Positions 2,590 through 53,875 of a stretch of DNA of 64,000 nucleotides are shown piece after piece. Position 1 is the first letter of the stretch. The number at the start of each line of letters is the position of its first letter. A program made the translations under genes and the position numbers. The notes beneath the pieces were generated by a model. It ran no database searches. It was not told the DNA's origin and saw nothing but the letters and a program-made list of their open reading frames with translations. Source of the stretch: Tannerella serpentiformis. GTDB taxonomy: Bacteria > Bacteroidota > Bacteroidia > Bacteroidales > Tannerellaceae. The DNA lies in the NCBI RefSeq assembly GCF_003033925.1, contig NZ_CP028365.1, positions 1,116,001-1,180,000 of the forward strand. Reading direction: 5' to 3'.

Positions 2590-5305
2590 TACCCCCCGAA
2601 AACGCACCTCATTTCACCCATCCCAATAAGGATACACCCAAAACCCGCCCGATTTTAGACCCAAACCATCGTCGAGGGGCATTTCGGGGCGTATGCTTTT
2701 GCGCCCTACACGGGTACGTGCAAAACCCGCCCGGTCTCATATTTCCGCACACGGATACGCCAAAAACCCGCCCGATTTTAGGTGCAAATCCCCGTCGAGG
2801 GGTTTTTCGGGGCGCATGCTTTTGCGCCCCTACACGGATACATGAAAAACCCGGCGGGTTTTAGGCCTAAACCTTCGGCGAGGCTATTTGAGGGGCGTAT
2901 GCAATACGCCCCTACACGGGTACATGAAAAATTTGGCGGGTTTCACATTCCCGTATCCGTACCCGCCAAAAACGCACCCGATTTCATCCATCCCAATAAG
3001 GATACGCCCAAAACCAGCCCTGTTTTATACCCAAATCCTTGACGCAGGACATTTTCGGGGCGTATGCTTTTGCGCCCTACACGGGTACGCGCAAAATTTG
3101 GCGGGTTTCATATTTTCGCACACGGATACACCAAAAACGCACCCCGTTTCACCCTCCCCAATAAGGGTACACCCAAAACCCGCCCGGTTTTACACCCAAA
3201 CCGTCGGCGTGGGACATTTCGGGGCGTATGCTTTTGCGCCCCTACACGGATACATGAAAAACCCGCCCGGTTCCACATTTCCCCATCCGGATACGTCAAA
3301 AACGCACCCGATTTCACCCTTCCCAATAGGGATACACCCAAAACCCGTCCGGTTTTAGGCCTAAACCGTCGTCGAGGGGCATTTCGGGGCGTATGCAATA
3401 CGCCCCGAAATGGGTACGTGAAAAACTTGGCGAGTTCCATACTTCCCGCACGCGTACCCACCAAAAACGCACCCGGTTTTACCTTCTCCAATAAGGATAC
3501 GCCCAAAACCCGCCCGGTTTTAGGCCCAAATCCTTGGCGAGGGACATTTCGGGGCGTATGCTTTTGCGCCCCTACACGGGTACGTGCAAAATTTGGCGGG
3601 TTTCACATTTCCTCATACGGATACACCGAAAACGCACCCCGTTTCACCCTTCCCAATAAGGACAGCCTCAAAACCCACCCTGTTTTAGACCCAGATCCTT
3701 GTCGCAGGATATTTGGGGGCGTATGCAATACGCCCCTACACGGGTACGTGAAAAATTTGTCCGGTTTCATATTTCCACACCCGGATGCACCCAAAAACGC
3801 ACCCGATTTCACCCATTCCAATAAGGATGCACCCAAAACCTGCTCGATTTTAGACCCGAACCTTTGGCGAGGAACATTTCGGGGCGTATGCTTTTGCGCC
3901 CCTACACGGGTACGTGCAAAATTTGGCGGGTTTCACATTTCCGCATCTGGATACGCCCAAAACCCACCCGATTTCACCTTTCCCAATAAAGATGCGCCCA
4001 AAACCCGCCAGATTTTAGACCCAAAACCTTGTCGCAGGACATTTTCAGGGCGTATGCAATACGCCCCTACACGGATACGTGCAAAATTTGTCCGGTTTCA
4101 TATTTCCGCATACGGATACGTCAAAAACGCACCCGATTTCACCTTTCCCAATAAGGATACGCCCAAGACCCGCCCGGTTTTACATCCAAACCGTCGGCGA
4201 GGAACATTTGGGGGCGTATGCTTTTGCGCCCCTACACGGGTACGTGCAAAATTTAACGGGTTCCACATTTCCCCATCCGGATACACCAAAAACGCACCCG
4301 ATTTCACCCTCCCCGATAAGGATACACCCAAAACCTGCCCGATTTTAGACCCAAACCTTTGGCGAGGAACATTTGGGGGCGTATGCTTTTGCGCCCCTAC
4401 ACGGGTACGTGCAAAATTTGGCGGGTTTCATATTTCCGCACACGGGTACACCAAAAACGCACCTTTTTTCACCCTTCCCAATAGGGATAGACCCAAAACC
4501 TGCCCGATTTTAGGCGCAAACCCCTGTCGCAAGACATTTGGGGGCGTATGCTTTTGCGCCCTACACGGGTACACACAAAATTTGGCGGGTTTCATACCTC
4601 CTTACACGGATAAGCCCAAAACGCACCCGGTTTTAGACGCAAACCTTCGGCGCAGGACATTTGGGGGCGTATGCTTTTGCGCCCCTACACGGGTACGTGA
4701 AAAACCCGGCGGGTTTCATATTTCCCCACCCGGATACGCCAAAGACCCACCCGATTTCACCTTTCCCAATAGGGATACACCCAAAACCCGCCTGGTTTTA
4801 GGCGCAAACCCCTGTCGCAGGACATTTCGGGGCGTATGCAATACGCCCCTACACGGGTACATGAAAAATTTGGCGGGTTTCATATTTCCGCACACGAATA
4901 CGCCAAAAACGCACCCAGTTTCATACTTCCCAATAGGGATACACCAAAAACGCACCCGGTTTCATATTTCCGCACACGGATACGCCAAAAACGCGCCCGG
5001 TTTTAGACCCAAACCTTTGGCGAGGAACATTTGGGAGGCGTATGCTTTTGCGCCCCTACACGGGTATATGAAAAATTTGGCGGGTTTCACATTTTCCCAA
5101 TAGGGATACGCCAAAAACCTACCCGATTTTACCTTCTCCAATAGGGATACACCAAAAACGTACCCGATTTTACCCTTCCCAATAGGGATACACCCAAAAA
5201 CCGCCCGATTTTAGACCCAAACCTTTGGCGAGGAACATTTCGGGGCGTATGCTTTTGCGCCCTACACGGGTACGTGCAAAATTTGACGGGTTTCATATTC
5301 CCGCA
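2590..5305. repeat. Higher-order tandem array of ~41-bp monomers, mostly organised in 165-bp units
   Basis: About 2.7 kb without a credible gene. The anchor GGGGCGTATGC (once GGGGCGCATGC) recurs 17 times with spacings of 123, 83, 165, 164, 165, 165, 165, 165, 166, 164, 165, 165, 123, 165, 206 and 207 bp. All are close to multiples of 41. Within a 165-bp unit four monomers are visible. Three share the core GGATAC...AAAACSSSCCGGTTT. The fourth carries a hairpin, either GGGGCGTAT-GCA-ATACGCCCC or the GTATGCTTTTGCGCCCC variant. Open frames run through the block because 165 is a multiple of three; I do not call them genes. Confidence 0.95.
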
Positions 5306-5620
5306 CACGACATAGCCTGAAACCCGACGGGTTTTGGACTTTGCCACACGACATAGCGCGAAACCCGGCGAGTTTTGGACTTTGCCACACGACATAGCGC
5401 GAAACCCGGCGGGTTTTGGACTTTGTCACACGACATAGCCTGAAACCCGGCGGGTTTTGGACTTTGCCACTCGACATGACGCGAAACCCGGCGGGTTTTG
5501 GACTTTGCCACTCGACATGGCGTGAAACCCGGCGGGTTTTTAACTTTGCCACACGACATAGCCCAAAACCCGGCGGGTTTTTCACATTGCCACACGTTTG
5601 AGTGAAACCCGGCGGGTTTT
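5305..5620. repeat. 41-bp tandem repeat, about 7.5 copies, core AAACCCGGCGGGTTT
   Basis: It directly continues the preceding block. Each unit is 41 bp (CACACGACATAGCGCG followed by AAACCCGGCGGGTTTTGGACTTTGC, with few changes). The centre AAACCCGGCGGGTTT is nearly palindromic, and the same AAAACCCGSCGGGTTTT core occurs in monomers of the upstream array, so the two probably share an origin. From the end of the array to the yfhO-like start (about 300 bp) I see only a candidate promoter. Confidence 0.95.
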
Positions 5621-5794
5621 ACTCACCCCAAAATCAAAATCGACTCTACGCGGAGGCGGGAATCGCGCACAGCACAGGATCGAAAGGCGGCCGAGGGTAC
5701 TTTTTTCGCCCCCTCACAGCGCCGACCCGAAAAACGCTCCGCCGAATAGACCCCGACAGGCGTTGGCGGGCGAAAAGGGTCGCGGTTTTTTACC

Positions 5795-5802
5795 TACGTT
5801 TG
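5795..5802 (+). promoter_or_regulatory. Candidate -7 box (TACGTTTG) for the yfhO-like gene
   Basis: TACGTTTG fits TAnnTTTG and lies about 115 bp before the ATG. No well-spaced -33 element is visible, so support is modest. Confidence 0.35.
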
Positions 5803-5918
5803 CGCCCCAAAACCAAACAAATAGGCCGGGGAATCCGCCTCTGAATCGCGCCCACAGCGGGCCGCTTTTCTGACCGAATCCGACGACATTTATACGACAT
5901 CAAATTAGTTTTTCAAAT

Positions 5919-8351
5919 ATGAATGAGGCAATCAAGAAGGGATGGCCGCACGTGGTGGTGGTGATCCTGTTTTTCGCGCTCGCAGCGATCTATTTCGCAC
6001 CTGAACTGTTCGACGGTAAGGGGCTGGTGCAAGGCGACGTAAACAGCGCTCAGGGCTGGGGAAAAGACATCGCGGATCACTATCTGAAAACCGGCGAGCA
6101 CGCCTACTGGTCGGCGCGCATGTTCGGCGGCATGCCGCATAACTACACGAATAGCGCGCCGATAGTAAACATCTTTGACTATCTGAGCCGCTTCCTGGCG
6201 TACACCTTGCCGGGCAACGCGCTGCTTGTGCTGCTCTATTTGGTAGGGTTCTACGTGTTTATGATCGCGCTGGGGTGTCGCCCGGGCCTGGCCGCGGTGG
6301 GAGCTGTGGCCTACGCCTTCGCGTCGTACAATCTGATCATCATTGAGGCCGGCCACGTCAATAAGTGCCTCGTCATGTCGACGATGGCGCCGATCCTGGG
6401 CGGCGTGATCCTCTGCTATCGCGGGCGGCTGCTCTGGGGCAGCTTGGTGACCCTGTTTTTCACCGGGCTCAACGTCCTGTGGAGTCATCAGCAGATCAGC
6501 TATTACCTATTGATTATGATGTTCGTTTTGGCCCTCACCTACCTGATCTTTGCGATTCGCAACCACACGTTGGGCGCCTACCTCAAGTCGTCCGCCGTGC
6601 TCCTCGTGGTAGGCCTGCTGGCCGTGGCACCAGCCGCCGGACAGCTCATCAGCTCAGCCGACTATGTGAAGGAATCCATGCGCGGGGGGGCGGTGCTGAA
6701 GAACAATGCGGAGGGTCAAAAAGAAAGCTCGGGGCTCGAGATCGACTATGCCTACATGTGGAGCTACGGCCGGGGCGAGACCATGACGCTGCTCATCCCC
6801 AACTTCTACGGCTCGGATTCGCATCATAACATCGGCACCGACTCGCACACGTACCGCTTCTTTTCCGATCATGGGCAGGCGGATCAGGGGCGCCAGTTTA
6901 CGCGCTTCGCCCCGATGTACTGGGGCGATCAACCCTTCACGAGCGGGCCGGTGTATGTCGGGGCCATCATCTGCTTCCTTTTCGTGCTCGGACTCTTGAT
7001 CGTGAAGGGGCCTGAGCGCTGGTGGCTGCTGGCCGTGACGCTCATTTCGATTCTCCTCTCGTGGGGCAAAAATGCAGGCATCAACGAGTTCTTCTTCTAT
7101 CATTTGCCGCTCTACAACAAGTTCCGAACGCCTTCCATGGCGCTTGTGGTGGCCGAAGTTTCGATGGCGGCCCTGGCCATCCTGGCCGTCAAGCGCATCC
7201 TCGAGGCGGACGACAAACGTGCCCTGTTGCGCCCGCTCTACATCGCCGCTGGCCTCTCCGGGGGCCTTTGCCTACTCTACGCCCTGCTTGGGGGCGGACT
7301 GATGAGCTTTTCGGGCCCAGCCGACGAGCAGTTTAAGCAATACCCCGACTTGCTGATGGCGCTCGTGGCCGATCGGCAAGGCATGCTCTCGGCCGATGCC
7401 TGGCGTTCGTTTGGGTTCATCGCTGCGGTGGCTGCGCTGCTATTCATTTATCTGAAGAAGCCTTTTAACGCGAATTACGTGGTGGCCGTGATCGGGCTGC
7501 TCGTTTTTGCTGATCTCTGGGCCGTGGATAAGCGCTTTTTGAATTACGAGGACTTTGTGCCGCAGCGCCAAGCACGCGAAATCGTAGCCACGGAGGCGGA
7601 CAAGCAAATCCTGCAGGACAAGGATCCGAACTATCGGGTTTTGAACCTGACCAAGAGTACGTTTAACGAATCCGAGACGTCGTACTTTCATAAGTCCGTC
7701 GGAGGTTATAGCCCCGCCAAGTTGCGCCGCTATCAGGATATTATCGACTATCATTTTGCGGCTAAGGGGATCAATCCGAACGTTTTGAACATGCTCAACA
7801 CGCGTTACGTGATCGTCCCCACGGATCAAGGGCCGCAGGTGCAGCGTAACCCCGGCGCCCCCGGATGCGTTTGGTTCGTCAACGAGATTCGCTGGGTCAA
7901 CTCGCCCGACGAGGAAATCGTGGCCCTGAACGACTTCAACCCCGTGCGCACGGCCGTCATCGATAAGGCGTGGCAGGCCGACCTGCCATCGTGGCAGCAA
8001 CTGGCCTCGAGCGACAGCGCCGCCACGATTCGCCTGACGGATTACCCGGCGCCCGACCGCCTGCTCTACGAGAGCCAGAGCGCCTCGCCGCGTTTGGCAG
8101 TCTTCTCGGAGGTGTTCTACAAAACGTGGCACGCCTACATCGACGGCCGTGAGGTGAAGCCCATCCGTGTGGATTACATCCTGCGTGGGCTGGAGATCCC
8201 CGCGGGCACGCACAAGATTGAGTTCCGCTGCGTGGACGATGTCTATCTGCGCAGCGCACGGATCTCGCTCATCGCATCGATTGTAGTCGGCGTCGTCTTT
8301 CTGGCCCTGCTCGGGATGGCCGTCCGCAACGCGGTGGTTCGGAAAGCCTGA
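5919..8351 (+). CDS. YfhO-family polytopic membrane protein
   Basis: An 810-residue integral membrane protein. The N-terminal segment (about residues 11-27) is hydrophobic and many further transmembrane stretches follow to about residue 530. A soluble region (about 540-780) comes next, then a last membrane helix near the C-terminus. The pattern matches YfhO proteins, which in Firmicutes act in glycosylation of cell-envelope polymers and have a GT-C-like architecture. Function in Bacteroidetes is inferred only. Early acidic residues in GLVQGDVNSAQGWGKDI resemble the periplasmic loop of GT-C enzymes. The last codons (Arg-Lys-Ala-stop) lie inside the first unit of the following 82-bp array, so the array has replaced or overlaps the 3' end of the gene. 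Confidence 0.85.
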   Translation: MNEAIKKGWPHVVVVILFFALAAIYFAPELFDGKGLVQGDVNSAQGWGKDIADHYLKTGEHAYWSARMFGGMPHNYTNSAPIVNIFDYLSRFLAYTLPGNALLVLLYLVGFYVFMIALGCRPGLAAVGAVAYAFASYNLIIIEAGHVNKCLVMSTMAPILGGVILCYRGRLLWGSLVTLFFTGLNVLWSHQQISYYLLIMMFVLALTYLIFAIRNHTLGAYLKSSAVLLVVGLLAVAPAAGQLISSADYVKESMRGGAVLKNNAEGQKESSGLEIDYAYMWSYGRGETMTLLIPNFYGSDSHHNIGTDSHTYRFFSDHGQADQGRQFTRFAPMYWGDQPFTSGPVYVGAIICFLFVLGLLIVKGPERWWLLAVTLISILLSWGKNAGINEFFFYHLPLYNKFRTPSMALVVAEVSMAALAILAVKRILEADDKRALLRPLYIAAGLSGGLCLLYALLGGGLMSFSGPADEQFKQYPDLLMALVADRQGMLSADAWRSFGFIAAVAALLFIYLKKPFNANYVVAVIGLLVFADLWAVDKRFLNYEDFVPQRQAREIVATEADKQILQDKDPNYRVLNLTKSTFNESETSYFHKSVGGYSPAKLRRYQDIIDYHFAAKGINPNVLNMLNTRYVIVPTDQGPQVQRNPGAPGCVWFVNEIRWVNSPDEEIVALNDFNPVRTAVIDKAWQADLPSWQQLASSDSAATIRLTDYPAPDRLLYESQSASPRLAVFSEVFYKTWHAYIDGREVKPIRVDYILRGLEIPAGTHKIEFRCVDDVYLRSARISLIASIVVGVVFLALLGMAVRNAVVRKA

Positions 8352-9340
8352 CGAAAAATCAGGTCACCCAATCGGTGAGCGTCGGAGCGCAACAGCCCAC
8401 GCCCCCAGCACCCCGCCGAGGTGAAAAGCCTGACGGAAAATCAGGTCGCCCAATCGGTGGGCGTCGGAGCGCAACGGCCGACGCTCCCAGCACCTCGCCG
8501 AGGCGGAAGGCCTGACGGAAAATCAGGTCGCCCAATCGGTGAGAATCGGGGCGCAACGACCGACGCCCCCAGCAACCCGCCGAGGCGGAAAGCCTGACAG
8601 AAAATCAGGTCGCCCAATCGGTGGGCGTCGGAGCGCAACGGCCGACGCTCCCAGCACCTCGCCGAGGCGAAAGGCCTGACGGAAAATCAGGTCGCCCAAT
8701 TGGTGGGCGTCGGAGCGCAACGGTCGACACCCCCAGCACCCCGCCAAGCCGGAAGGCCTGACGAAAAATCAGGTCGCCCAATCGGTGGGCGTCGGAGCGC
8801 AACGGCCGACGCCCCCAACACCTCGCCGAGGCGAAAGGCCTGACGGAAAATCAGGTCGCCCAATCGGTGGGCGTCGGGGCGCAACAGCCGACGCCCCCAG
8901 CACCTCGCCGAGGCGGAAAGCCTGACGGAAAATCAGGTCGCCCAATCGGTGGGCGTCGGAGCGCAACGGCCCACGCACCCAACACCTCGCCGAGGCGGAA
9001 AGCCTGACGAAAAATCAGGTCGCCCAATCGGTGAGCGTCGGAGCGCAACGGTCGACGCCCCCAGCACCCCGCCAAGGCGGAAAGCCTGACGAAAAATCAG
9101 GTCGCCCAATCGGTGGGCGTCGGGGCGCAACGGTCGACGCCCCCAACACCCCGCCGAGGCGGAAGGCCTGACGGAAAATCAGGTCGCCCAATCGGTGGGC
9201 GTCGGGGCGCAACGTCCGACGCTCCCAGCACCTCGCCAAGACGGAAAGCCTGACGAAAAATCAGGTCGCCCAATCGATGGGCGTCGGGGCGCAACGGCCG
9301 ACGCTCCCAACACCTCGCCGAGGCAGGAGGCCTGACGGGC
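8341..9340. repeat. 82-bp tandem repeat, 12 copies (2 x 41 bp)
   Basis: Twelve copies at an exact 82-bp spacing, with few substitutions. Each copy can form CCTGACGGAAAATCAGG, CCCAATCGGTGGG and GCGTCGG...CCGACGC hairpins, so a transcript would be a string of stems. Because 82 is not a multiple of three, frames shift from unit to unit. The set of ~65-residue minus-strand frames at 82-bp offsets is an artefact. The first unit overlaps the stop codon of the yfhO-like gene. Confidence 0.97.
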
Positions 9341-9390
9341 AGCACGATTCGGAAAATCATCACGAAAACCACCCGACACGACGGGTGGCA

Positions 9391-9452: not shown

Positions 9453-9490
9453 TGAGGCCACACCGCGTGCAGCCTGCTTGGCGCGACCGG

Positions 9491-9886: not shown

Positions 9887-9912
9887 GATGCGTAAATGGG
9901 TGAGTTAGGGGT

Positions 9913-10472: not shown

Positions 10473-10499
10473 TTGTTGTCAGTCAAAATGTTTCGGGGG

Positions 10500-14212: not shown

Positions 14213-14700
14213 GGGGTTGAATTGTTGAGGCTCGCTGGCGTTCGCCGGTTGAATTGTTGAATTGTTGAGTTGCTGAGGCTCGCTGCGCGAGCTTGTTTAG
14301 TTGTGTAAGGGTAAACAGGCGCCTGTTTAGAGTCCTGCATTTTGTGTAATGCCAAACAGGCGCCTGTTTGGGGCCATGCAATTTGCGCGAAGCTAAACAG
14401 GCGCCTGTTTGGGTTACTCCAGCCTGCGCGAAGCTAAACAGGCGCCTGTTTGGGGCTACGCAATCTGCGCGAGAGTAAACAGGCGCCTGTTTGGGGGCGG
14501 CTGCGGCCGCCAGCGAAGTTTGGCCGGGTACTGGATAAATCGCCGCCATTTCTTGTACCAGGCAAACTTCCCTGCCTCGGCAGAGGCCTGCGCGAAGACA
14601 AACGACTACTCAAGCTCTCAACAATCCAACATCTCAACGGATAAACGACCCAAACGACTCAACGACTCAACAGGCAAACGACTCAACAGGCAAGCGCAGC
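14206..14700. repeat. Five 41-bp repeats with the perfect palindrome AAACAGGCGCCTGTTT, flanked by inverted low-complexity arms
   Basis: AAACAGGCGCCTGTTT starts at 14313, 14354, 14395, 14436 and 14477, exactly 41 bp apart. The 25-bp linkers are less conserved. GTTGAATTGTTGAG-type words precede the array and their complements (CTCAAC, GACTCAACGACTC) follow, so the whole gap between convergent cca and relA is roughly an inverted repeat. A dispersed CAGGCAAACTTCCCTGCCTCGG element, also found near 24.25 and 25.93 kb, sits at about 14560-14590. No gene is seen. Confidence 0.92.
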
Positions 14701-16918: not shown

Positions 16919-17580
16919 CGTCTGTTTATCATTTGAATCAGTGACACCATATCGCCGACGGTGAAGGTGCGGAAGTCGTCGATCACCCGATCGCAGCGAT
17001 CGGCGATCGCCTCGGCCGGGTTCGTTGTTGCCAAACCCACCACGGCCCCTCCAGCCCGTCGGCCAGCCTCCAATCCGGTGAACGAATCCTCGAACACCAC
17101 GCAACGCGTGGGCGCTACACCGAGACGCTCGGCCGCCCGCAGATAGCCGTCGGGATGGGGCTTAGACCGACCCAGATCTTCGGCCACGAGGATGGCATCG
17201 AAGTGCGTCGTCAGCTCCGGCCGTGCTCGGTAGACGCAGGCCATCTTGGCGCGGTTCGAGCTGGTGACGACGGCTCGCGGCACACCGTGCCGACGCAGCT
17301 CGTCGAGAAACGCTTCCACGCCGGGGAGGTAGTCGTAGTGCATACGGGATTCAAAATCGACGAGCCCACGGCTGATTTCGGCCTGCGCCTCCATCTGTCC
17401 GTCGAAATACGCCTGAAAGATCTCCACGAGCGTGCGCCCTTTGATGCGCTGCGCAAAGTCCGTGAGGGTGGGGTGATAGCGCAGCCCGACCTGCTGCCAG
17501 TAGACGGTGTATTGCCGCTCGGTGTCGAAGACCACGCCGTCCAAATCGAAGAGCGCGGCCATGGGTTGGTTCGTTGTCAT
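16915..17580 (-). CDS. HAD-superfamily phosphatase/phosphomutase (beta-phosphoglucomutase-like)
   Basis: A 221-residue cytosolic HAD hydrolase with a four-helix cap (subclass I). Motif I is FDLDGVVFDTE, with nucleophile Asp12 and acid/base Asp14. Motif II is VVTSSNRAK. The motif III Lys lies in LGRSKPHPD and motif IV in VVFEDSFTGLEAG. Resemblance to beta-phosphoglucomutases and to sugar-phosphate or pyrimidine-nucleotide phosphatases does not fix the substrate. It is the first gene of a two-gene unit with relA (4-bp overlap), behind a TACTTTTG promoter box. Confidence 0.88.
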   Translation of the reverse strand: MTTNQPMAALFDLDGVVFDTERQYTVYWQQVGLRYHPTLTDFAQRIKGRTLVEIFQAYFDGQMEAQAEISRGLVDFESRMHYDYLPGVEAFLDELRRHGVPRAVVTSSNRAKMACVYRARPELTTHFDAILVAEDLGRSKPHPDGYLRAAERLGVAPTRCVVFEDSFTGLEAGRRAGGAVVGLATTNPAEAIADRCDRVIDDFRTFTVGDMVSLIQMINRR

Positions 17581-18450: not shown

Positions 18451-18499
18451 CATAGAATATGTATTGGCGCTTTTTTGTATCCTATCAAATGGCATGCAA

Positions 18500-18730
18500 T
18501 CCAATCCGAAACAATTTTGTATCACACAAGATTGCACACGATCCGATCTGAAACAGTTTTGTATTGCATCAGATTGCATGCAATCCAATCTGAAACAATC
18601 TTGTATTACATCAGATTGCACACGATCCGATCCGAAACAGTTTTGTATTCTATCAGATTGTACGCTATTCAATCCGAAACAGCTCTGTATTGCATCAGAT
18701 TTCACACCATCCAATCCAAAACAATTTTGA
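18500..18730. repeat. 42-bp tandem repeat, 6 copies, AT-rich
   Basis: The word CCAATCCGAAAC and its variants start at 18501, 18543, 18585, 18627, 18669 and 18711, exactly 42 bp apart. A unit carries an interrupted dyad (CAATCTGA ... TCAGATTG). The AT content contrasts with the surrounding 58-60% GC. It lies directly upstream of the DUF6261 promoter. Confidence 0.93.
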
Positions 18731-22656: not shown

Positions 22657-22709
22657 TAGAGGGTAGAGGATGGAGGGTAGAGGGTAGACATCCGACGATT
22701 TGGGAGAAG

Positions 22710-22759: not shown

Positions 22760-23035
22760 TGCCGCGAGACCCGGCGCAGGCTGCGCAAACGTCCCGGCAA
22801 ACACCGCAAGACTTGCGCAAGCTGCGCAAACGTCCCGGAAAACGCCGCAAGACTTGCGCGGGCTGCGCAAACGTCCCGGCAAACGCCGCAAGACTTGCGC
22901 AGGCTGCGCAAACGCCCCGGCAAACGCCACGAAACTTGCGCAAGCTGCGCAAACGCCTCGGCAAACGCTGCAAGACTTGCGCGGACTGCGCAAACGTCTC
23001 GGCAAACGCCGCGAGACTCGCAGGTACGCTCGCGG
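22760..23035. repeat. 41-bp tandem repeat, 7 copies, core TTGCGCAGGCTGCGCAA
   Basis: The CGCAAGAC/CGCGAGAC word starts at 22764, 22805, 22846, 22887, 22928, 22969 and 23010, exactly 41 bp apart. Each unit contains the near-palindrome TTGCGCAAGCTGCGCAA. The array ends about 60 bp before ruvB. An open frame runs from it into ruvB but has no plausible start. Confidence 0.95.
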
Positions 23036-36687: not shown

Positions 36688-38742
36688 TTACAGCGCCATA
36701 GCGGCGACCTTCGCTTCGTACTCCTGCTTCTGCTTTTGCAGGGAGTCGAGCTTGGCTGCGGCATCGGCGCGCTGCTTCTCACGACCTTCCCGATTCTCGA
36801 TGATTTGCTTGAGATCCTTATCGATCGGATCGATGAAATCATCAAACATCAATTTCTTGACGCGGTCTTCGATTGGACCGATGTCAGTCAGGCGCTGAAT
36901 TAACTCATCAACCTTCTTATCGGTGTCAAAGTGGTTCTTGAAGTCTTTGACCTCTGATTGGAATCTCGATTTGATCCCATCGTTACCCAAAAGCCAAACT
37001 CCCGCATCAATGAGCGGTCCAAACATTCCATCAAGGAATTCGAAAGATGCAGAAAGCAGGGCGTCGATAAAACCTTCCTTTTGGGAAGGTTGCTTAGTCG
37101 TTAATACTTCCTCTATAAAGGAGTCGACCTTGCCCTCCTCACACAGCTCTCGCAGCTTCGGAATTAGATGCTCCGTCTCGACGTCCATGTACTTCTCAAT
37201 CGTCCGCTTGAACTTCTCGACGTGCTCTTCTGAAATATGGGCGATGCAGCGCTTTTTCTCCTCTTTGAGCTTTTCCATTTGCCGAGGAATGATTCGGGTC
37301 TTTATCCGTCCGAGATCCTGTCTGACTTTATCCTTTATGGTCGCCTCGCTAGTGGTACGTCCAAAGGCATCAATATCACTAATGATCTGACCGCAATGCG
37401 CCGCCACTTCCTTTTCGATGGCGTCTTTCTGCCTGCGGCGCACCTCGCTCATACCCTCTTTTAGCTCAATCATGTACGTATCAAATTGCTTCTCGAGTCG
37501 TCTCTTGGCGCGTTCCAAGTTGCTCTGCTTCTCTTCTAAGGCATCGTCCGGCAGGTCCAAGTTCTCCTTCAGCTCCTTGGTGCGGATGATCGCTTGATCC
37601 AAGTCTGAACCGATCTTTGAGATGGCTGCCTTGATGGCGTTGCGCGACTTGTTGAAGAGGATCTCGCCTTTCTCTTTCATCACAATCTCTTGCACGCGCT
37701 TAGCGAGGTTCTCGAAACGGCTTTCCTTCCTTAGATCCGCTTGCGACTCGAGGTCGAAGGTTCTGCCATACCTGTCCCACGAGAACTTGTAGTTTTCGTT
37801 GCTGAGGATAGTGCTCATCGGTAGATAGGAGAGCAGCGCCATCTCGGCTGAGAGCGGTATCGGCTCCTCGTTCTTTAGCATGTCCTTCAGATCCTCGTCG
37901 TTCGATGCCCGACAGGCTTCCTTGATTTCTTTCGCTACGTAGTCCTTGATCATTTCTTCCGTATCGCCGTCTTGGAGGGGAATGTCGTACTTATTGATCC
38001 CAATAACCACTTTGCCGATGCCGCACTGCGAAAGATGCTTGAAGACGATTTCGCGGTCGGTGGCATTGAAGGGCATGCCGGCGTAAAGCATCAGCAGCAC
38101 GGCGTCGGCTCGGCGCAGAAAGTCCTTCGTGCGCTCCTCGCGCGATACGATCGGGTCGTTGAATCCCGGCGTGTCCACGATCTCGACGCCCTTGAGGTAC
38201 TCCTTGGGGCAATAGATCTTGACGGCCTTGGTGATGGAGACGAACTGCCCGTCGACACCGACGTATTCGATCAGCTTGTCCAACGTGTCAGTGTGCTTCG
38301 TGCCGAGCAGTTCCGGCAGGCAGCTGCTTATGCGGGCGGCCTTCTCAACAAGTTCTTGGGCGGCTTGCACCTTCGACTTTTCGGCCTCGCTGCTGTCCGG
38401 GGGTAACTCCCGCTGCGCCGTGAGGCGCTGCTCGTCCCACTCCTCACGGGTATAGAACTCTACTTCGATTTTTTCTTCCGGGCCATACGTGATGACGGTC
38501 AGTGCAGCCGTCATCGGCGTCGTGGCGGCGGGAAGCACGTCGCGCTCAAACACAAACGCGTTGAGGAAGGTAGATTTACCAGCCTTCATCTGCCCGATTA
38601 CACCAATGGTCAGCACATCGTTATCGAGTTTCTGCTCGAACTCTCGCCGCTGCTCGTCGGTGATAAATCTGTTGTCGGCGGCCTGCTTAATCAGCGCCCG
38701 CTGCGCCTCTTTCTTTTGATTGAATTGCTCAAATACGTTCAT
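36688..38742 (-). CDS. Dynamin-family GTPase (684 aa), last gene of the cargo operon
   Basis: Bacterial dynamin-like proteins bind GTP, self-assemble and remodel membranes. G1 is GQMKAGKST (50-58), G3 DTPG (190-193) and G4 NKYD (250-253). Long helical regions follow (about 340-480) with a charged coiled coil, and a hydrophobic stretch near SFEFLDGMFGPLIDAGVWLLG (about 570-590) could be the membrane paddle. The C-terminus is a coiled coil. Its G1 differs from the GEFSSGKTS of the two sister GTPases, so it is not a recent duplicate. It lies 6 bp behind the 573-aa GTPase gene. Overall the set recalls the LeoABC/Eleos dynamins, but I cannot confirm orthology. Confidence 0.88.
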   Translation of the reverse strand: MNVFEQFNQKKEAQRALIKQAADNRFITDEQRREFEQKLDNDVLTIGVIGQMKAGKSTFLNAFVFERDVLPAATTPMTAALTVITYGPEEKIEVEFYTREEWDEQRLTAQRELPPDSSEAEKSKVQAAQELVEKAARISSCLPELLGTKHTDTLDKLIEYVGVDGQFVSITKAVKIYCPKEYLKGVEIVDTPGFNDPIVSREERTKDFLRRADAVLLMLYAGMPFNATDREIVFKHLSQCGIGKVVIGINKYDIPLQDGDTEEMIKDYVAKEIKEACRASNDEDLKDMLKNEEPIPLSAEMALLSYLPMSTILSNENYKFSWDRYGRTFDLESQADLRKESRFENLAKRVQEIVMKEKGEILFNKSRNAIKAAISKIGSDLDQAIIRTKELKENLDLPDDALEEKQSNLERAKRRLEKQFDTYMIELKEGMSEVRRRQKDAIEKEVAAHCGQIISDIDAFGRTTSEATIKDKVRQDLGRIKTRIIPRQMEKLKEEKKRCIAHISEEHVEKFKRTIEKYMDVETEHLIPKLRELCEEGKVDSFIEEVLTTKQPSQKEGFIDALLSASFEFLDGMFGPLIDAGVWLLGNDGIKSRFQSEVKDFKNHFDTDKKVDELIQRLTDIGPIEDRVKKLMFDDFIDPIDKDLKQIIENREGREKQRADAAAKLDSLQKQKQEYEAKVAAMAL

Positions 38743-38748
38743 TTCTGT

Positions 38749-40470
38749 CTAACCATTATATAGGTTCTGATAATCTCTCAGTCTCCTCTCATATTCTATT
38801 TCTTCCTGAGATTTCCTGGAGTCCTGATAGCTTGTTTGCCTTGTTTGCCCACCATTCGCCAAGCCTTTAAGGAGTTTCTTGAATTGCTCTTGGTGCTCCG
38901 AGACCCTCGTGTATTTTTCTGCTATTTCATTCAGTTTATGAGCGGCTTCTTTTGACGCCCCACCAAAATCCATAGCATGCTCTTGGAGAGATTCGATTTT
39001 TTCGATCAGTTGCTTGAGTTGAGCATTAGCCATGTCATCAAGGAGTCTGACAAAAGCCTGTCGCTCCTGTTTTGTCATTACATATTCATTTTCACCAAAG
39101 CCCAACCAAGTTGTTCTCCTGTTAGGCAGATCAATAATCTTTCTTCTATAATCGCGGATTCTGGTTACAATAGCATTGAGAACATTAATATCTCCCCTCA
39201 TGGCCAAGCTAAGTCTCTGTATCTGCGTATTTGCGTTCTCGCGTGTTGTTTCATCTTCCCTTCGGAGATTTCCCTCCAGTATGTTCAGCTGACCTTGTAC
39301 ACGTCTGAAGTAGTCTTCGGCCTGCCCCGTCTTTCTGATGGAGCGGATCACGGTCATCAGCTGATCGATGTCTTCCAGCTTAGAGAAAGGGATAATCTGT
39401 TTGTATTCGACCCCTTTTGACCTCAGGGTGCTAGAGATCACGTTGATCACCTGATCTACCTCATTCGAGGACTTGGTGTCCACCTTATTGACGATGATAT
39501 ACAGCGGCTTTTCCAGCTTCTCTTGGATCACGGCAAGGGAGCTTTGGTTGATCGTACCGTTGTTGACGTCGATCACCCAAAACAGGGCGTCGCATTCGTT
39601 GACCACTTCCAAGGTGCGCTCCTTGTCCTTGGCGTCATTGGAGCTGAATCCCGGCGTATCTAATATGCTAATGTCATTCAGGAAAGAATTGGCCTCCTCT
39701 CTTACCACATAATTGATCAGCTGATCCATGCCGCGCACCTCGTCCAGCGTCTCCTTGCTCATCTCTTCCACCATTTTGCCTTCAAGCACCTTTCGGCTCT
39801 CATCCTTGGCGATGAAGGAATAAGTGGCATAGGCATTTTCCCCAATGCTGCTGATGTAGGTAGGGATGGCCGTAGAGGCTTTGGTACTTACCTTCATCAG
39901 GGTAGCGTTCGGATTACCGGCCGTCAGCAGACGATTCACGATGGAGGTCTTACCGGAGGAGAACTCACCGATAAAGGCTACGGCCGTTTTGCCAGTGATC
40001 CATGTCTTCTTTTGGTTGGCCATGAATCGCTCAAAGTCGGCTCGGTCGAGATTGGCCGTGATATTGTTTTCTCGCAGCAGCGGCACGAAGTCTTCCTTGA
40101 TAAAGGCCGCCATCTGATCGACCAAGGTTAGCTGGCGCGACGAGCGCTCCGTGCGGTCAGCCGCCGGCGCACTCAAAATGTAGCTTACGAACTCGATGGC
40201 CTTCTTTCGTTGCTCGCTGAGCGTTTTGAGATGGGCGTTTTCTTCCTCTATTTTTTTGCGCTCTACCTGCGCGTGCTGCATGTCAGCAAAGAGCTTATTG
40301 TAGTCATCATTCCGTGCCTTTAGCTTTTTCTCTAACGACTCTTTGTCTTCCTCTGCCATGTCCTTGTCATCCTCCAACTCTTTGACCTGTCGCTTCAGCA
40401 CCTTCAGTTCCTTCTCGCTTTGGGCCAACTTGTCTCTTAGATTTTGGAGTTCTTTCTCGAGTGCTTCCAT
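38749..40470 (-). CDS. Dynamin-family GTPase (573 aa) with N-terminal coiled coil
   Basis: The first 95 residues form a strongly charged coiled coil (MEALEKELQNLRDKLAQSEKELK...). The GTPase domain follows: G1 GEFSSGKTS (168-176), G3 DTPG (271-274) and G4 NKVD (328-331). A helical stalk region completes the protein. No clear transmembrane segment is seen. The N-terminal coiled coil resembles that of the small protein encoded just upstream and may pair with it, bringing the GTPase to the membrane. It is separated from its neighbours by 1 bp and 6 bp. Confidence 0.88.
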   Translation of the reverse strand: MEALEKELQNLRDKLAQSEKELKVLKRQVKELEDDKDMAEEDKESLEKKLKARNDDYNKLFADMQHAQVERKKIEEENAHLKTLSEQRKKAIEFVSYILSAPAADRTERSSRQLTLVDQMAAFIKEDFVPLLRENNITANLDRADFERFMANQKKTWITGKTAVAFIGEFSSGKTSIVNRLLTAGNPNATLMKVSTKASTAIPTYISSIGENAYATYSFIAKDESRKVLEGKMVEEMSKETLDEVRGMDQLINYVVREEANSFLNDISILDTPGFSSNDAKDKERTLEVVNECDALFWVIDVNNGTINQSSLAVIQEKLEKPLYIIVNKVDTKSSNEVDQVINVISSTLRSKGVEYKQIIPFSKLEDIDQLMTVIRSIRKTGQAEDYFRRVQGQLNILEGNLRREDETTRENANTQIQRLSLAMRGDINVLNAIVTRIRDYRRKIIDLPNRRTTWLGFGENEYVMTKQERQAFVRLLDDMANAQLKQLIEKIESLQEHAMDFGGASKEAAHKLNEIAEKYTRVSEHQEQFKKLLKGLANGGQTRQTSYQDSRKSQEEIEYERRLRDYQNLYNG

Positions 40471-46115: not shown

Positions 46116-46415
46116 GATTAATACCGTTCCGAGGGGTATTTATATACGTTCCGGGGAATATTTAATACCGTTCCGAGGGGTATTTAACCACGTTCCGAGG
46201 GGTATTTAATACCGTCCTGATGGGTATTTAATTACGTCCTGAAGGGTATTTAATTACGTCCCGAGGGGTATTTATGACGTCCCGAGAGGTATTTCATACC
46301 ACCCCGAAGGGTATTCCACTGTGCTCGAAGCGGTATTTAATGAGGTTCCGAACGTATCGATGACCACCTCGGAACGGTATTTCACCACGTTCTGAAGGGT
46401 ATTTCACGTGAGTGC
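46116..46415. repeat. 22-bp tandem repeat, about 13 copies, core GGTATTTAATACC
   Basis: TATTTA-type words fall at 46137, 46159, 46181, 46203, 46225, 46247, 46269, 46290, 46312, 46334, 46355, 46378 and 46400: a 22-bp period with rare shifts of one. The core GGTATTTAATACC is palindromic. Divergence increases toward the right end. Two further copies lie on the other side of the mobile element. Confidence 0.93.
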
Positions 46416-47424: not shown

Positions 47425-47426
47425 TT

Positions 47427-47513
47427 TATAGAGGGTAGAGGGTAGAGGGTAGAGGGTGGAGGATAGAGAGTAGAGGGTGGAGGGTGGAGGGTGGAGGGTA
47501 GACGGTAGAGGGC
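47427..47513. repeat. 7-bp microsatellite (TAGAGGG/TGGAGGG)n between resB and ccsA
   Basis: About eleven copies of TAGAGGG, TGGAGGG and close variants lie directly upstream of the ccsA start. A shorter tract of the same motif occurs after the CoA-transferase gene at about 22656-22690. Slippage would change the resB-ccsA spacing. Confidence 0.85.
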
Positions 47514-47522
47514 TATTTGCTC

Positions 47523-50297: not shown

Positions 50298-50391
50298 AGT
50301 AGTAAGGAGTAGTTAGAGGGTAGTCAAAGGGTTGTAAGAAGTAGTGAGAGGGTGGTGGAAAGGAGTGACGAGAGTGCTCAGCGCTTCGTCT

Positions 50392-50985
50392 TTAGATTTT
50401 CGATTTCCCGCTTCCCATCATCTTCTTCAGCCAGTCAGGGACGGGCGACTTGGGCAGCGGTACAACGGCGTCTGGCGTACCATTCAGGTTGCTACGCTTG
50501 CCGTGGGGCACACTTGTGTGACAATCCCAGCAGGCTTTGCCTTTGCCATTCACAGCATCCACGTAGGAGATCATACCGGTGTTGACGAACTCCTGATTCA
50601 GCTGCGTGTGACAGCGGATGCAGTTGTTCATGATCACCTCATAGCTCTCCTCGCGCGGACGCAGCGCCATAGGTTCACTTCGCAGCGTGAAGACGGAGGC
50701 GTGGAGCAGTCCGTCTTTGGCCTTGAAGGCATACTTGAGGAATACGTTGTCATGCGGCACATGGCAGTCGTTACACGTTGCCCGTCGCCCGTGCGAACTA
50801 TGATCCCACGAGTTGTAGTAGGGCGCCATGATGTGACAGTTGATGCACACCGATGGGTCGTCGCCGAGATACGTGTGTATCCTCGCCATGTAAGCCGCAT
50901 AAGCGCCAAGCCCGGCCAAGATTCCCCCGAAAACGAAGAGGGGAAGGACAAGCTGACGCGGTAGGGAGGTCAATAATTTCTTCAT
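50392..50985 (-). CDS. nrfH: Cytochrome c nitrite reductase small subunit (quinol dehydrogenase)
   Basis: A 197-residue NapC/NirT-family tetraheme protein that takes electrons from menaquinol and feeds NrfA. One N-terminal membrane helix (about 11-33) anchors it. Heme motifs are CINCH (47-51), CNDCH (71-75), CIRCH (122-126) and CWDCH (152-156). It is followed by nrfA after 94 bp. Upstream lie a TACCTTTG box and a GTAAT-N4-ATTAC palindrome identical in pattern to the one before the porin gene. Confidence 0.95.
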   Translation of the reverse strand: MKKLLTSLPRQLVLPLFVFGGILAGLGAYAAYMARIHTYLGDDPSVCINCHIMAPYYNSWDHSSHGRRATCNDCHVPHDNVFLKYAFKAKDGLLHASVFTLRSEPMALRPREESYEVIMNNCIRCHTQLNQEFVNTGMISYVDAVNGKGKACWDCHTSVPHGKRSNLNGTPDAVVPLPKSPVPDWLKKMMGSGKSKI

Positions 50986-51013
50986 AACGGATCGGGGCTA
51001 CAATCAACGGGGG

Positions 51014-51057
51014 CAAAGGTAGCCCCGAAGTGTAAACAAGAGTGTAATAAGAATTAC
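51014..51057 (-). promoter_or_regulatory. nrfH promoter with GTAAT-N4-ATTAC operator
   Basis: -7 box TACCTTTG at 51021-51014 (minus strand). The dyad GTAATAAGAATTAC lies at 51044-51057, its centre 36.5 bp from the G that ends the -7 box. This puts it near -41 relative to the expected start, the class II position of Crp/Fnr activators. Confidence 0.7.
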
Positions 51058-51086
51058 AGATGCAATCAGCACATAGGCAGCCATCT

Positions 51087-52358
51087 TCACCACATGGCTT
51101 GGAAGACGCGCGTCTGAATGTTCACCGAGAGCCACGCCCAATCCTGCCAGCGCGTGTGATCGCCGCCCTTCACATAGTCCATCGTCTCCGTACCGGACAT
51201 AAAGGAATAGCCGGCCATGAGGTTGACGTCTTTCATGAGCTTCCAGCTAAGCTGCAAATCGACCTCCGTGCCTAAGCCCTTCGAACGCTGACCAGTGGCT
51301 GACTGAAGGTTGCTCGTGGTGCTGAAGTAGTGACCCGTAGCGCCGAGGCTCAAGCTGGGGGTGACAGCCACGTTCAGTCCGGCGTAGTTATCCCACAGTC
51401 CAGGGTTCAGACCGTTGGCGAAGGGAGAGGCGTAGAAGTAATCCATCGCCCCGTAGAACTTGTGGTGCGTACCGTAGAGCGGATTGAAGGCTTCAAAGCG
51501 GGTGCTCTCGCGCTTATCGCCCGAGAGGTAGTCCGAGCCGAGCTGGAACGAGAGACCTTCGGTGGCGTGAATGTTGGCGCGCAGGGCTGCCATCCAAGCT
51601 GAGATGGAGACATCGGCCGCGGTACGTCCCATTTGATAGTAAAACGCACCGGAGAGATCCAAGGCACGATCCGGACGTACCCCGAGGTTCACCCCGAAAG
51701 TCTGCTGGTAGCGCGTCTCAGCACGATCCGCGGTGCCGCCTTCTAACCCTAAGTTCATCGCCAAGGCCGAAACGCGGAAATGCTCGTCGGAGTGGGCGTA
51801 CCAGAGCGTCTGCATCGACTTGTAGGGCTGTGCACCGGGGTGATAATACGTGCCCCCGATCACCCGCTCATCGTTTTGATTGAAGGCCAGGATCAGGTGC
51901 AGGAGATCCCGTCGAGACTCATAGCCGAGCTTCAAGGCGTCGTGGTAACGCCCGGCCATGTTCCAATCCAGTGCGCCGAGGATGCGTTCATCGTCGTACG
52001 ATAATGGCTGGCGCCCCAGCTTGGCAAACAGGCCGTGGCCGAAGCGGAGCTTAGCCCAAGCCTCGTTGAGGATGAAGCGCCCGTTGCGGTCGATCTGCGG
52101 ATCCTGCCCCCAAACGCCTACATGCTGCGCGGAGAAGCGCATCTCAAGTTGGCTGCGCTCATAGCCCAACGAGAGGCGCGCTCGATTGGCAATGAACCGA
52201 GCCGGCAGTTCTCCTCGATCACGCGGAAAGAGTGCCCCGTTACGATATTCGGCTCGCGGCCGAACCTGCACGTCTACCGTCGTTTGATTGTCGCCCGGTT
52301 GCGCCATCATTCCGCCTACGAACAGCGAAAAGATCATACAAAACATAGTTCGTCTCAT
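51087..52358 (-). CDS. Outer-membrane beta-barrel porin (alginate-export-domain type)
   Basis: A 423-residue protein with a signal peptide (about 1-19) and a long series of alternating amphipathic strands ending in an aromatic residue (Trp). Segments such as ARLSLGYERSQLEMRFSAQHVGVWGQD and EAWAKLRFGHGLFAKLGRQPLSYDDERILG fit the alginate_exp family of porins. Placed between the Crp/Fnr gene and nrfH, and sharing the same operator spacing, it may admit nitrite or nitrate, or export a product; this is inference. Its own promoter lies just upstream. Confidence 0.82.
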   Translation of the reverse strand: MRRTMFCMIFSLFVGGMMAQPGDNQTTVDVQVRPRAEYRNGALFPRDRGELPARFIANRARLSLGYERSQLEMRFSAQHVGVWGQDPQIDRNGRFILNEAWAKLRFGHGLFAKLGRQPLSYDDERILGALDWNMAGRYHDALKLGYESRRDLLHLILAFNQNDERVIGGTYYHPGAQPYKSMQTLWYAHSDEHFRVSALAMNLGLEGGTADRAETRYQQTFGVNLGVRPDRALDLSGAFYYQMGRTAADVSISAWMAALRANIHATEGLSFQLGSDYLSGDKRESTRFEAFNPLYGTHHKFYGAMDYFYASPFANGLNPGLWDNYAGLNVAVTPSLSLGATGHYFSTTSNLQSATGQRSKGLGTEVDLQLSWKLMKDVNLMAGYSFMSGTETMDYVKGGDHTRWQDWAWLSVNIQTRVFQAMW

Positions 52359-52390
52359 TGTTTAGTCCTCCATTGTTTGATTAATGGATG

Positions 52391-52434
52391 CAAAGGACGA
52401 GGTTATTCGGTTCATTGGCCGTAATACTTATTAC
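52391..52434 (-). promoter_or_regulatory. Porin promoter with GTAAT-N4-ATTAC operator
   Basis: GTAATACTTATTAC at 52421-52434; its centre is 36.5 bp from the end of a weak -7 box (GTCCTTTG, 52398-52391), the same distance as at nrfH. The missing TA of the box suggests a promoter that depends on an activator. It also lies about 64 bp upstream of the start expected for the divergent regulator gene. Confidence 0.7.
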
Positions 52435-52477
52435 GCCGCCGCGCACGCACACTCCCCTGACGACTCTATATAAGGGC

Positions 52478-52485
52478 TACCTTTG
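52478..52485 (+). promoter_or_regulatory. -7 box (TACCTTTG) for the Crp/Fnr regulator gene
   Basis: TACCTTTG, 38 bp before the ATG, with the GTAAT-N4-ATTAC site upstream at a distance suited to autoregulation. Confidence 0.5.
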
Positions 52486-52522
52486 CCTTTGAGAATAAAA
52501 GTAGAAGTACTGAACACGCACC

Positions 52523-53215
52523 ATGAATGAGATCTCACTCACTGAGTCACTACAACAGACCTTATTCCGGATCCCACTTTTCGAAGGGGCCCCGGAGAGT
52601 CTCCGCGCGTCGCTTACGGAGCGGCTCGACGCCCGACTCTATACGCTGGAAAAGAACGAAATCGTCGCTCATCAAGGCACCGTCTGCCGCGCACTTTACG
52701 TGCTACTCGAAGGGCGTGTGCGAACCGACCTCATCGACGAATGGGGTAATCGGGTGATGATTGAAACGATCGTAGCACCGGGTTCCTTCGCCACGCCCCA
52801 CCTCTTCAGCCGCGACCAAACGCTGCCGGCCACTTTCACAGCCACCATGCCCTCCACACTGCTTATGGCCCCGCGCGAATCCGTCTTTCGACTCATCAGC
52901 GAGGAGCCTTACCTGCTGAAGAACTTCCTGCATGTCTCGGGCAACTGCAACCATTGCACTTCCGTCCGCCTACGCATCCTCACGCAGCGGACCGTCCGCA
53001 ACCGCTTCGTCGCCTACCTGCTGGATCGCCCGACCAGCCCCGACGGATGGTTCACGGCCGAGCACAACACCTCGCAACTGGCGCACTACCTCTGCGTCAC
53101 TCGCCCCGCACTCTCGAAAGAGATCAGTAAAATGGTACGCGAGGGACTCATCGCCGTCGAAGGTCGCCGCTACCGCCTTCTGGCCGAACAGCAGCTCCGA
53201 CAGGAGATGGGGTGA
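52523..53215 (+). CDS. Crp/Fnr-family transcriptional regulator, probable controller of nrf and porin
   Basis: A 230-residue regulator: cyclic-nucleotide-binding-like beta barrel (about 15-125), long dimer helix (about 130-160), winged HTH (about 165-220, with HYLCVTRPALSKEISKMVREGLI as recognition region). No N-terminal four-Cys cluster typical of FNR is seen; Cys occurs only in GNCNHCTS near the dimer helix and at two other places. It is divergent from the porin-nrf genes. Two GTAAT-N4-ATTAC palindromes near the porin and nrfH promoters are its likely sites. The signal (NO, nitrite or redox) is unknown. Confidence 0.9.
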   Translation: MNEISLTESLQQTLFRIPLFEGAPESLRASLTERLDARLYTLEKNEIVAHQGTVCRALYVLLEGRVRTDLIDEWGNRVMIETIVAPGSFATPHLFSRDQTLPATFTATMPSTLLMAPRESVFRLISEEPYLLKNFLHVSGNCNHCTSVRLRILTQRTVRNRFVAYLLDRPTSPDGWFTAEHNTSQLAHYLCVTRPALSKEISKMVREGLIAVEGRRYRLLAEQQLRQEMG

Positions 53216-53284
53216 GGGCTATCTTTCTAGAAAAACATTTCCGACATCCGTCCTGTCAAGCAAAGAATCCCCGCAAAGCCCTGT

Positions 53285-53875
53285 AAACCTCATCCGGCAA
53301 GGCCTTCTTTTTTTTCGGGAAGGGCTGCCCCGCACCACCGTCTATGTCTTCTTTTTTCGGGTAGGACTGCCCCGCACCACCGTCCATGCCGTTTTTTTCG
53401 GAGAAGACCGCCCGCACGGCTCTTTCAGAGATATATTTCAAAATGCACAACTATTCAAGGCCTTATCTCATTCCATATCTCAAAATACATAGCTATCCAA
53501 AGCTTATCCTAGTATCATTCCTCAAAATATACAGCGACCCGAGTCTCATCTCGCACTATCCCTTGAAATATATAGCTATCCGAAGCTTACTTTAGTACCA
53601 TTTCTCGAGATATGTAGTTATCCGAAGCTCATTTTAGTATCATTCCTCGAAATATATATATACCTGTGGATTGTTTTGTGCCATATCTCGAAATATATAG
53701 CTATCCGAAGCTAATTTCAGTACTATTTCTCGGAATATATAGCTATCCAAACCTCATTTCATTCCATTTCTCGAAATATGTAGCTATCTGAATACCATTT
53801 CAGTTCCATTTCTCGAGATATATGGCTATATGAACCTCATTTCTGTAGTTTTTCTCGAAATAAAGAGCCTATCGA
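53285..53875. repeat. 41/42-bp tandem array, about 14 units, changing from GC-rich to AT-rich
   Basis: Three GC-rich units around CTGCCCCGCACCACCGTC (53325, 53367, 53408; spacing 42 and 41) are followed in phase by about eleven AT-rich units with CTCGAAATATATAGCTATCCGAAGCT. The anchor falls at 53437, 53479, 53521, 53562, 53604, 53646, 53687, 53729, 53770, 53812 and 53854: spacing alternates 42 and 41. TAGCT...AGCTA is a dyad within a unit. No gene is visible between the regulator and pncA. Confidence 0.93.

Follow-up and report, generated by a model that had tools for sequence, protein, structure and literature searches.

The window analysed here is a stretch of 64,000 nucleotides of the Tannerella serpentiformis genome (positions 1116001-1180000 of the single 3,013,500-base contig G000:C1; the genome is 99.84% complete), and it carries a series of tandem arrays of different sequence whose repeat periods are 41 or 42 bp or multiples of this length. 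All arrays named in a sequence-only reading of the window, made by a model before this analysis, were found by Tandem Repeats Finder (TRF) and autocorrelation at the places and with the periods it had given, and the wide spread in GC content that it had pointed out runs from 0.34 to 0.67. The arrays are the following.

2590..5299, composite array with units of 123, 165 and 206-208 bp (3, 4 and 5 x 41), palindrome GGGGCG...CGCCCCTAC; TRF rows 2630-2853, 2846-4633 and 4714-5299; autocorrelation peaks 165, 164, 41, 206, 166 and 123
5304..5620, 41-bp array, 7.8 copies, 86% self-identity, dyad AAACCCGGCGGGTTT; TRF; mean dyad score 6.2/8
8340..9338, 82-bp array, 12.2 copies, 90% self-identity, several weak dyads (peaks 5.0-5.5); TRF; autocorrelation 82 and 164 only
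14301..14496, 41-bp array, 79% self-identity, perfect 16-bp dyad AAACAGGCGCCTGTTT (8/8) in its regular part 14354-14496; TRF
18473..18729, AT-rich 42/84-bp array, dyad weak (5.3); TRF; autocorrelation 84 and 42 over 18497-18729
22774..23018, 41-bp array, 89% self-identity, dyad TTGCGCAGGCTGCGCAA with score 7.0/8; TRF
53306..53417, GC-rich 42-bp array, 2.7 copies, without clear dyad (no dyad peak); TRF
53471..53862, AT-rich diverged array with mixed 41/42-bp steps; TRF; autocorrelation 125, 83 and 42

The array at 8340 had been read as 2 x 41; its period of 82 stands, but no 41-bp subrepeat is visible in the autocorrelation. Nearly all monomers had been said to carry a dyad. Within the window dyads are clear at 14354 (8.0), 22774 (7.0) and 5304 (6.2), weak at 8340 and 53478 (both 5.5) and at 18473 (5.3), and absent at 53306. 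The family of the 5304-5620 array is present at 7 more places in its own genome and at none in 12 genomes of the same genus, and the family of the 14301-14496 array recurs at L146:17655. A 22-bp array (TTAATACGTTCCGAGGGGTAT) at 46118-46404 of the window lies outside the 41/42 series, and 43- and 64-bp units with TTCCGAGGTGGT-like words were noticed by eye at L082, L086 and L100.

The quantum is real and genome-wide. TRF was run on 864 kb of the genome, composed of the window and 40 stretches of 20 kb across the contig, and arrays with a period of at least 15 were counted after removal of overlaps (n=245). Periods of 41 (39 arrays) and 42 (42 arrays) account for 81 of the 245, while the neighbouring periods are rare, 40 occurring in 2 arrays and 43 in 6; the histogram of this sample thus has the peak supposed from the window, 81 arrays against 8 at 40 or 43. 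Multiples are also found, with 26 arrays at 81-86, 16 at 121-129 and 8 at 163-172, and the longest at 208, 252 (2), 294 (2) and 462. Long periods outside the quantum are 88, 89, 93, 101, 135, 215 and 431. The 137 arrays at 41/42 or multiples occupy 4.5% of the sample, at least one of them was present in 39 of the 40 stretches, and the median copy number of arrays is 5.3. At the density of the sample, the whole genome would hold about 280 arrays of 41/42 bp. Bacterial minisatellites are usually seen as slippage products with scattered periods, and no report of such a repeat-period quantum was found among the matches listed in the open-licence literature.

The period stays while the sequence differs, as had been stated for the window. 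Units were compared in all rotations and on both strands, and were joined when the score was above all 3000 shuffles. Seventy-three units with at least 2.5 copies fell into 42 families, and a lower joining score gave 33 families from 70 units. Among noncoding arrays of period 15-130 with at least two copies (169 arrays in 82 families), 34 of the 44 unrelated families with a period between 25 and 60 are of 41 or 42 bp. Representatives of separate families score a mean of 12.7 against 12.0 in shuffles, barely above chance, so little common ancestry is visible between them. Single families can be widely dispersed, and one 41-bp family gave 62 matches at 34 places of the genome (places merged by our own procedure; 40 of 48 candidates scored).

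In this genome the A/T content of the units runs in four cycles per unit. For the harmonic test one unit per family was used, 33 families in all (11 of 41 bp and 22 of 42 bp). The AA/TT power at the 4th harmonic was 0.113; mononucleotide shuffles gave 0.058 (z 6.5) and swap-based dinucleotide shuffles 0.068 (z 4.2). The next harmonic was the 5th (z 2.9, and 1.2 against dinucleotide shuffles). The 4th harmonic of AA/TT stands out in the 41-bp families alone (10.25 bp, z 4.1) and in the 42-bp families alone (10.5 bp, z 5.4). In 2000 draws of 33 non-array intergenic windows, a signal as strong was met in none for AA/TT, in 0.2% for A/T and in 0.45% for GC dinucleotides. Arrays of period 18-24 and 25-40 gave no 10.25-10.5-bp signal. 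Identity at lags 10, 11, 20 and 21 was not clearly raised in the units (z 1.3, 0.2, -0.5 and 1.6), so the AA/TT signal does not come from smaller sub-repeats.

In most families the phase is also fixed with respect to the dyad. Axis phase and other periods were tested on noncoding rows without copy limit (38 families). In 20 of 27 families the dyad axis falls into the G/C phase, with no random-axis draw of 2000 as extreme, and A/T lies half a turn from the palindrome axis in most families. Units of 81-86, 121-129 and at least 163 bp also peak at 10.25, and their further peaks at fractions of about 41.5 bp are what higher-order arrays would give. A-tracts phased at 10-11 bp occur in prokaryotic genomes according to the cited passage (PMC3940949); a link of such tracts to tandem-repeat length was not found among the matches listed in the open-licence literature.

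Dyads were counted in the 79 of 81 arrays whose consensus has the period length. A palindrome of 15-17 bp with at least 6 of 8 pairs is present in 63 of the 79 units, so that genome-wide most monomers carry a dyad, which falls short of nearly all, and a strong one of at least 7/8, a score reached by 3.5% of shuffles, is found in just 41. Variation was analysed in 60 arrays (3 or more copies, column agreement of at least 82%) and, as a subset, in the 33 of them with a dyad of at least 7/8. In the latter, pairing reaches 7-8 bp from the axis, then falls to 0.42 at 9 and 0.09 at 10, and choosing strong dyads accounts for part of the pairing at position 1. Pairing rises again, less strongly, at 13-19 bp from the axis, the region of a second dyad at half-unit distance. 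A strong second dyad was found in 4 of 24 families, no more than chance would place at any position of the unit (3.48); the chance expectation within 0.5 bp of the half-unit is 0.48, yet all four are located there. Axes every 20-21 bp were seen at L086:1374-1590, L098:5211-5513 and L097:1999-2195. Over 726 noncoding dyads the spacing peaks at 21, 41, 42, 63, 82, 84, 105, 123 and 126, with 1 pair at 31 and 3 at 52, counting pairs within an array, which are not independent.

Variability is lowest 5-7 bp from the axis (0.010-0.026); positions 10-13 (0.080-0.122) and position 2 (0.122) rank among the most variable. At positions 2-4, both partners were changed yet paired in 55 copies and only one partner was changed in 39; of the 55 double changes, 39 stem from one family at three loci, and two pair types within an array were seen at positions 2, 3 and 4 in 7, 3 and 5 of 52 arrays. 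With moderate strength, the palindrome seems to be kept while its centre changes. In one 42-bp family (L098:10470, L134:180 and L143:9158) two alleles of the palindrome centre, three adjacent symmetric pairs apart, coexist at all three loci. In the family representatives (24 families), T is very rare on the 5' side of the axis, making up 0.04 of half-sites at position 1 and 0.02 at position 2, and positions 2-3 are mostly purines, an apparent asymmetry.

The arrays are intergenic and neutral in orientation. With a simple codon-usage gene finder, 126 of 131 arrays at 41/42 or multiples were not mostly inside genes. The neighbouring genes of 119 arrays are co-directional in 70 cases, divergent in 25 and convergent in 24, similar to the 105, 40 and 33 among intergenic regions of at least 300 bp, many of which contain the arrays. 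Mismatches of the palindromes between co-directional genes were 22 of the G-T type against 27 of the A-C type. The lack of orientation preference and of G-U bias argues against a function as terminators or RNA hairpins and points to the DNA itself as the functional form.

The register can be held while the sequence changes. At L085, L098 and L221 it is kept while the spacer or a half-unit changes, and at L085 and L221 the palindromes on either side are related. For the window, the sequence-only reading had the phase maintained through the change from GC- to AT-rich units at 53.4 kb; the first of these two arrays offers no clear dyad from which a phase could be read. Dyad gaps were compared in ten neighbouring pairs of 41/42 arrays. 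In abutting pairs the gap was 41 (L085), 42 (L093), 41 (L098), 43 (L149) and 41 (L150); unit similarity is within the shuffle range (maximum 25) only for L098 (19) and L149 (16), and the units are related in L085 (37), L093 and L150 (29). Among the other pairs the gaps were 105 and 231, that is 2.5 and 5.5 x 42 (the latter within the same family), -0.5 and 22 in overlapping rows, and 306, a pair from one family with poor dyads that is out of register. Since homologous descent may explain why arrays like L221 keep their register free of indels, this is no proof of selection. At L097:2190-2694, modules of 168 bp (4 x 42) carrying two GTAG-tagged palindromes in inverted orientation, which look REPIN-like by eye, lie inside a 42-bp array with the 42-bp frame intact.

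We sampled 661 kb from 12 genomes of the same genus, which are fragmented and have some arrays at contig ends, so the counts are lower bounds. Among 72 arrays, 14 had a period of 41/42 and 14 a period of 21; 63 and 83-85 occur, and 31 and 52 do not. The 41/42 arrays were found in three of the 12 genomes (G004, G010 and G012). Outside genes called by a simple gene finder were 8 of the 14 arrays of 41/42 bp and 10 of the 14 of 21 bp; stop-free arrays may mislead the finder, 21 and 42 being divisible by three. Six of the 14 dyads of the 41/42 units reach 7/8, where 0.43 would be expected. In ten of these units the 2nd harmonic is raised for AA/TT (z 2.8) and A/T (3.6), as is the 6th for A/T (4.6), a pattern expected if several units are doubled 21-bp units. 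Two families of the own genome were sought in the 12 congeners, and one was found weakly in G012 only, the other in none; for these two families the sequence turns over between species and 41/42 recurs. In G010, the array L118:11844-12157 (about 14 units, period 21 bp) has dyads similar to what we take to be the chromosomal parS (up to 15/16). A centromere reading of this array was rejected, several dyads being CATATG or CACATG and not CACGTG.

As a control, 80 loci around asnA in other Bacteroidales (1.33 Mb) were searched; these are gene-rich neighbourhoods and an imperfect control. Here 4 of 91 arrays were at 41/42 (1.9-3.5 copies) and 31 at 21 or 22, so that a 21-22-bp period is common in the order, and in 307 kb from other families of the order none of 10 arrays was at 41/42. 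A two-turn base step is possible in view of the 21-bp congener arrays and of the second dyads, which sit at the half-unit in all four families that have one, but arrays of 21 or 22 bp are frequent among the controls too (31 of 91). Short 21-22-bp arrays with palindromic units were seen at the control loci L040, L057, L065, L074, L075 and L078, and over all 52 control arrays of 18-24 bp, 6/7 pairs were reached in 19% against 7% of shuffles. Two 84-bp arrays (L077:8374-8598 and 17317-17536) lie in a metagenome-assembled genome labelled Prevotellaceae (Hm464_bin154), indicating a possible wider occurrence.

Several known systems share single features with these arrays. In the cited passage, the F-plasmid site sopC (parS_F) is composed of twelve 43-bp tandem repeats with ten 16-bp inverted repeats (PMC6238139). 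As far as that passage describes it, the anatomy of the unit is near identical to ours, with 41/42 bp and an inverted repeat of 15-17 bp (at least 7/8 pairs in 41 of 79 units). However, sopC is one locus with one sequence and one dedicated ParB, whereas here dozens of unrelated sequences occupy many loci, and for this reason one ParB for all arrays is unlikely. The one perfect copy of the presumed chromosomal parS in the genome is at G000:C1:1418558.

Eukaryotic satellites are described in part of PMC8122249 as having a monomer length common to many of them and equal to the chromatin unit. The likeness to nucleosome-length satellites, within that description, is one monomer length in unrelated families (34 of 44 here); the likeness to a monomer set by chromatin is the helically phased A/T in 33 own-genome families (z 6.5 and 4.2), which was not seen in the ten congener units. 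Unlike the eukaryotic case, the arrays here are bacterial, of about 42 bp and short, and an archaeal-type histone was not found in 13 genomes.

Repetitive extragenic palindromes (REP) and bacterial interspersed mosaic elements (BIME) are, in the cited passages, intergenic palindromes that are often regularly spaced (PMC2817692, PMC3733652), to this extent as here; the differences are the fixed 41/42 quantum, the many unrelated sequences and the occurrence of each REP tag in one of 24 families only. The BrickBuilt minisatellite of Porphyromonas gingivalis, also from a Bacteroidales genome, has 23-nt units in one family of miniature inverted-repeat transposable elements and grows or shrinks by whole units, as the cited passage has it (PMC4596501). 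Here there is no flank common to all families: 146 masked 150-bp flanks gave 63 matches, which either joined members of one family or led to a single dispersed element located next to several families. Borg elements resemble this genome in having many unrelated arrays, arising independently, in one genome; perfect copies, A-richness and location of about half of the arrays in open reading frames are Borg features, and no fixed period is stated in the cited passage (PMC9879509).

The account that we tentatively prefer, plausible though somewhat short of probable, is that these are dispersed, satellite-like intergenic arrays whose length is held at four helical turns by a scaffold of a two-fold symmetric DNA-binding protein. 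A regular protein assembly with a two- or four-turn repeat would bind, bend or wrap the arrays, and repeats out of register would not be kept; arrays of other lengths would be lost or not fixed. The role would then be architectural; the protein would more probably organise the nucleoid or chromosome than regulate particular genes. HU was detected in 13 of 13 genomes searched and HU-HIG in the own genome; the long HU frames look like an open frame upstream of an ordinary HU, and HU is unremarkable.

A number of results weigh against this account. Searches for HU, HU-HIG and histones gave no protein candidate for the scaffold, the archaeal-type histone being absent from the hits in all 13 genomes, and one sequence-specific protein cannot explain the arrays, because the units have no common recognised binding sequence. 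Nine of the 12 congeners (7-76 kb sampled each, from fragmented assemblies that lose arrays) showed no 41/42 array, and 6 of the 14 congener arrays lie inside called genes. The sequence-only reading had equated 41-42 bp with four turns. The AA/TT peak at the 4th harmonic, unmatched in 2000 intergenic draws, supports this independently, but the 43-79-bp arrays share part of the signal (z about 2 over 10 families; their ratio to shuffles is 1.45, that of the 41/42 arrays 1.68), and the ten congener units, a small sample, are not raised at the 4th harmonic for AA/TT (z 1.3) or A/T (0.8). The GC profile aligned on the axis has a broad peak with its maximum at 9 bp, not a sharp one at 10.4. DNA has about 10.4-10.5 bp per turn, so 41 and 42 cannot both keep dyads on one face over ten units; the strict form of the earlier claim that all dyads lie on the same face therefore fails in long arrays of both 41 and 42, and phasing could only hold between neighbours or with an adapting twist. 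Suppression of indels in the 41/42 arrays was not clearly shown either, with 0.119 indels per substitution against 0.131 in arrays of 43-79 bp and 0.473 in those of 15-39 bp, values that are sensitive to the aligner; ratios from TRF percentages (0.037, 0.062 for 43-79 and 0.178 for 15-40) have the same type of limit.

Two other causes of the quantum are left beside the scaffold, an inherited period and copying in fixed steps. The first, which we consider somewhat unlikely, is that all arrays go back to one old mobile minisatellite or a few of them, which multiplied by duplication or transposition until their kinship was no longer visible, the period being preserved through changes of copy number and with no selection for phase. 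Arrays do disperse, as seen from the 62 matches at 34 places and the 73 units in 42 families, and the palindrome and AAAAA-TTTTT half-unit of the dispersed 41-bp family recur at 41 bp in the congener G012. The register kept through gradual unit change in L221, L085 and L098 is what descent would give, and separate families are slightly more alike than shuffles (12.7 against 12.0). That excess is small, however, and both 41 and 42 occur. An inherited period also predicts neither the four A/T cycles in families without visible kinship nor their fixed phase to the dyad.

The second cause, less likely still in our judgement, is a generator working in two- or four-turn steps by replication, repair or hairpin-templated copying, the phasing then reflecting enzyme geometry on the helix. 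The many unrelated families at one length and the palindromes in most units fit it, and symmetric double changes (55 against 39) are what hairpin-templated correction would give. But most of these changes (39 of 55) come from three loci of one family, and arrays with two pair types are few (7, 3 and 5 of 52). Linker pairing at 10-12 bp is 0.25 in the four two-dyad families and 0.09-0.36 over the 33 arrays; the linkers between equally spaced dyads are not complementary, which makes a fold-back or dumbbell origin unlikely. We know of no enzyme with such a copying step. Nor does a fixed step alone set A/T at a fixed phase to the dyad.

Transcribed arrays of RNA hairpins, serving as terminators, stabilisers or sponges, are very improbable: stem-like palindromes with some compensated changes would suit them, but the sense strand has no G-U bias (22 G-T against 27 A-C), convergent or downstream sites are not preferred, and neither 41/42 nor the helical phase of AA/TT is predicted. 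Hardly more credible is a spread of REP/BIME arrays by a REP-associated tyrosine transposase (RAYT), for which one Y1_Tnp gene in the own genome, the GTAG-tagged palindrome pair in the 168-bp modules of L097 (by eye) and the regularly spaced REPs of BIMEs in the cited passage (PMC2817692) could be named. GTAG stands beside the dyad in 1 of 24 families, as does CGTC, tags anywhere in the unit are found in 6 of 33 (GTAG) and 12 of 33 (CGTC) against 8.9 and 9.9 in shuffles, and Y1_Tnp was not found in G004 (93% complete), which hosts five 41/42 arrays, three of them outside called genes. Clustered regularly interspaced short palindromic repeats (CRISPR) were rejected, as a search for Cas1, which detected 9 of 14 controls, gave 0 matches in this genome and, in the arrays inspected, whole 41/42-bp units including the spacer repeat in tandem, with no unique spacers.

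A quantum shared by unrelated sequences, with four A/T cycles inside the unit, suggests that something physical about the DNA may set the repeat length. If a protein particle is the cause, as in the scaffold that we prefer, the arrays would record how chromatin is organised in a bacterial lineage known here from its sequence alone. We might go further and speculate, though the idea is doubtful, that this lineage has satellite DNA on a chromatin-like ruler, in which a particle of 21- or 42-bp repeat coats or wraps the intergenic DNA and selects which tandem repeats persist. Many arrays unrelated in sequence would then share modules of two and four turns, each module with its dyad and its A/T bend phase. 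If a copying machine of fixed step is the cause instead, it would be a new source of bacterial repeats.

Two further observations were made in the window. Repeats of the heptamer TAGAGGG are located at two sites, 22657-22688 (4.6 copies) and 47429-47512 (12 copies). At 36688-40470 on the minus strand, two adjacent genes encode large GTPase-like proteins; their matches to models of bacterial dynamin and of the Era type are weak and score below the curated cut-offs.

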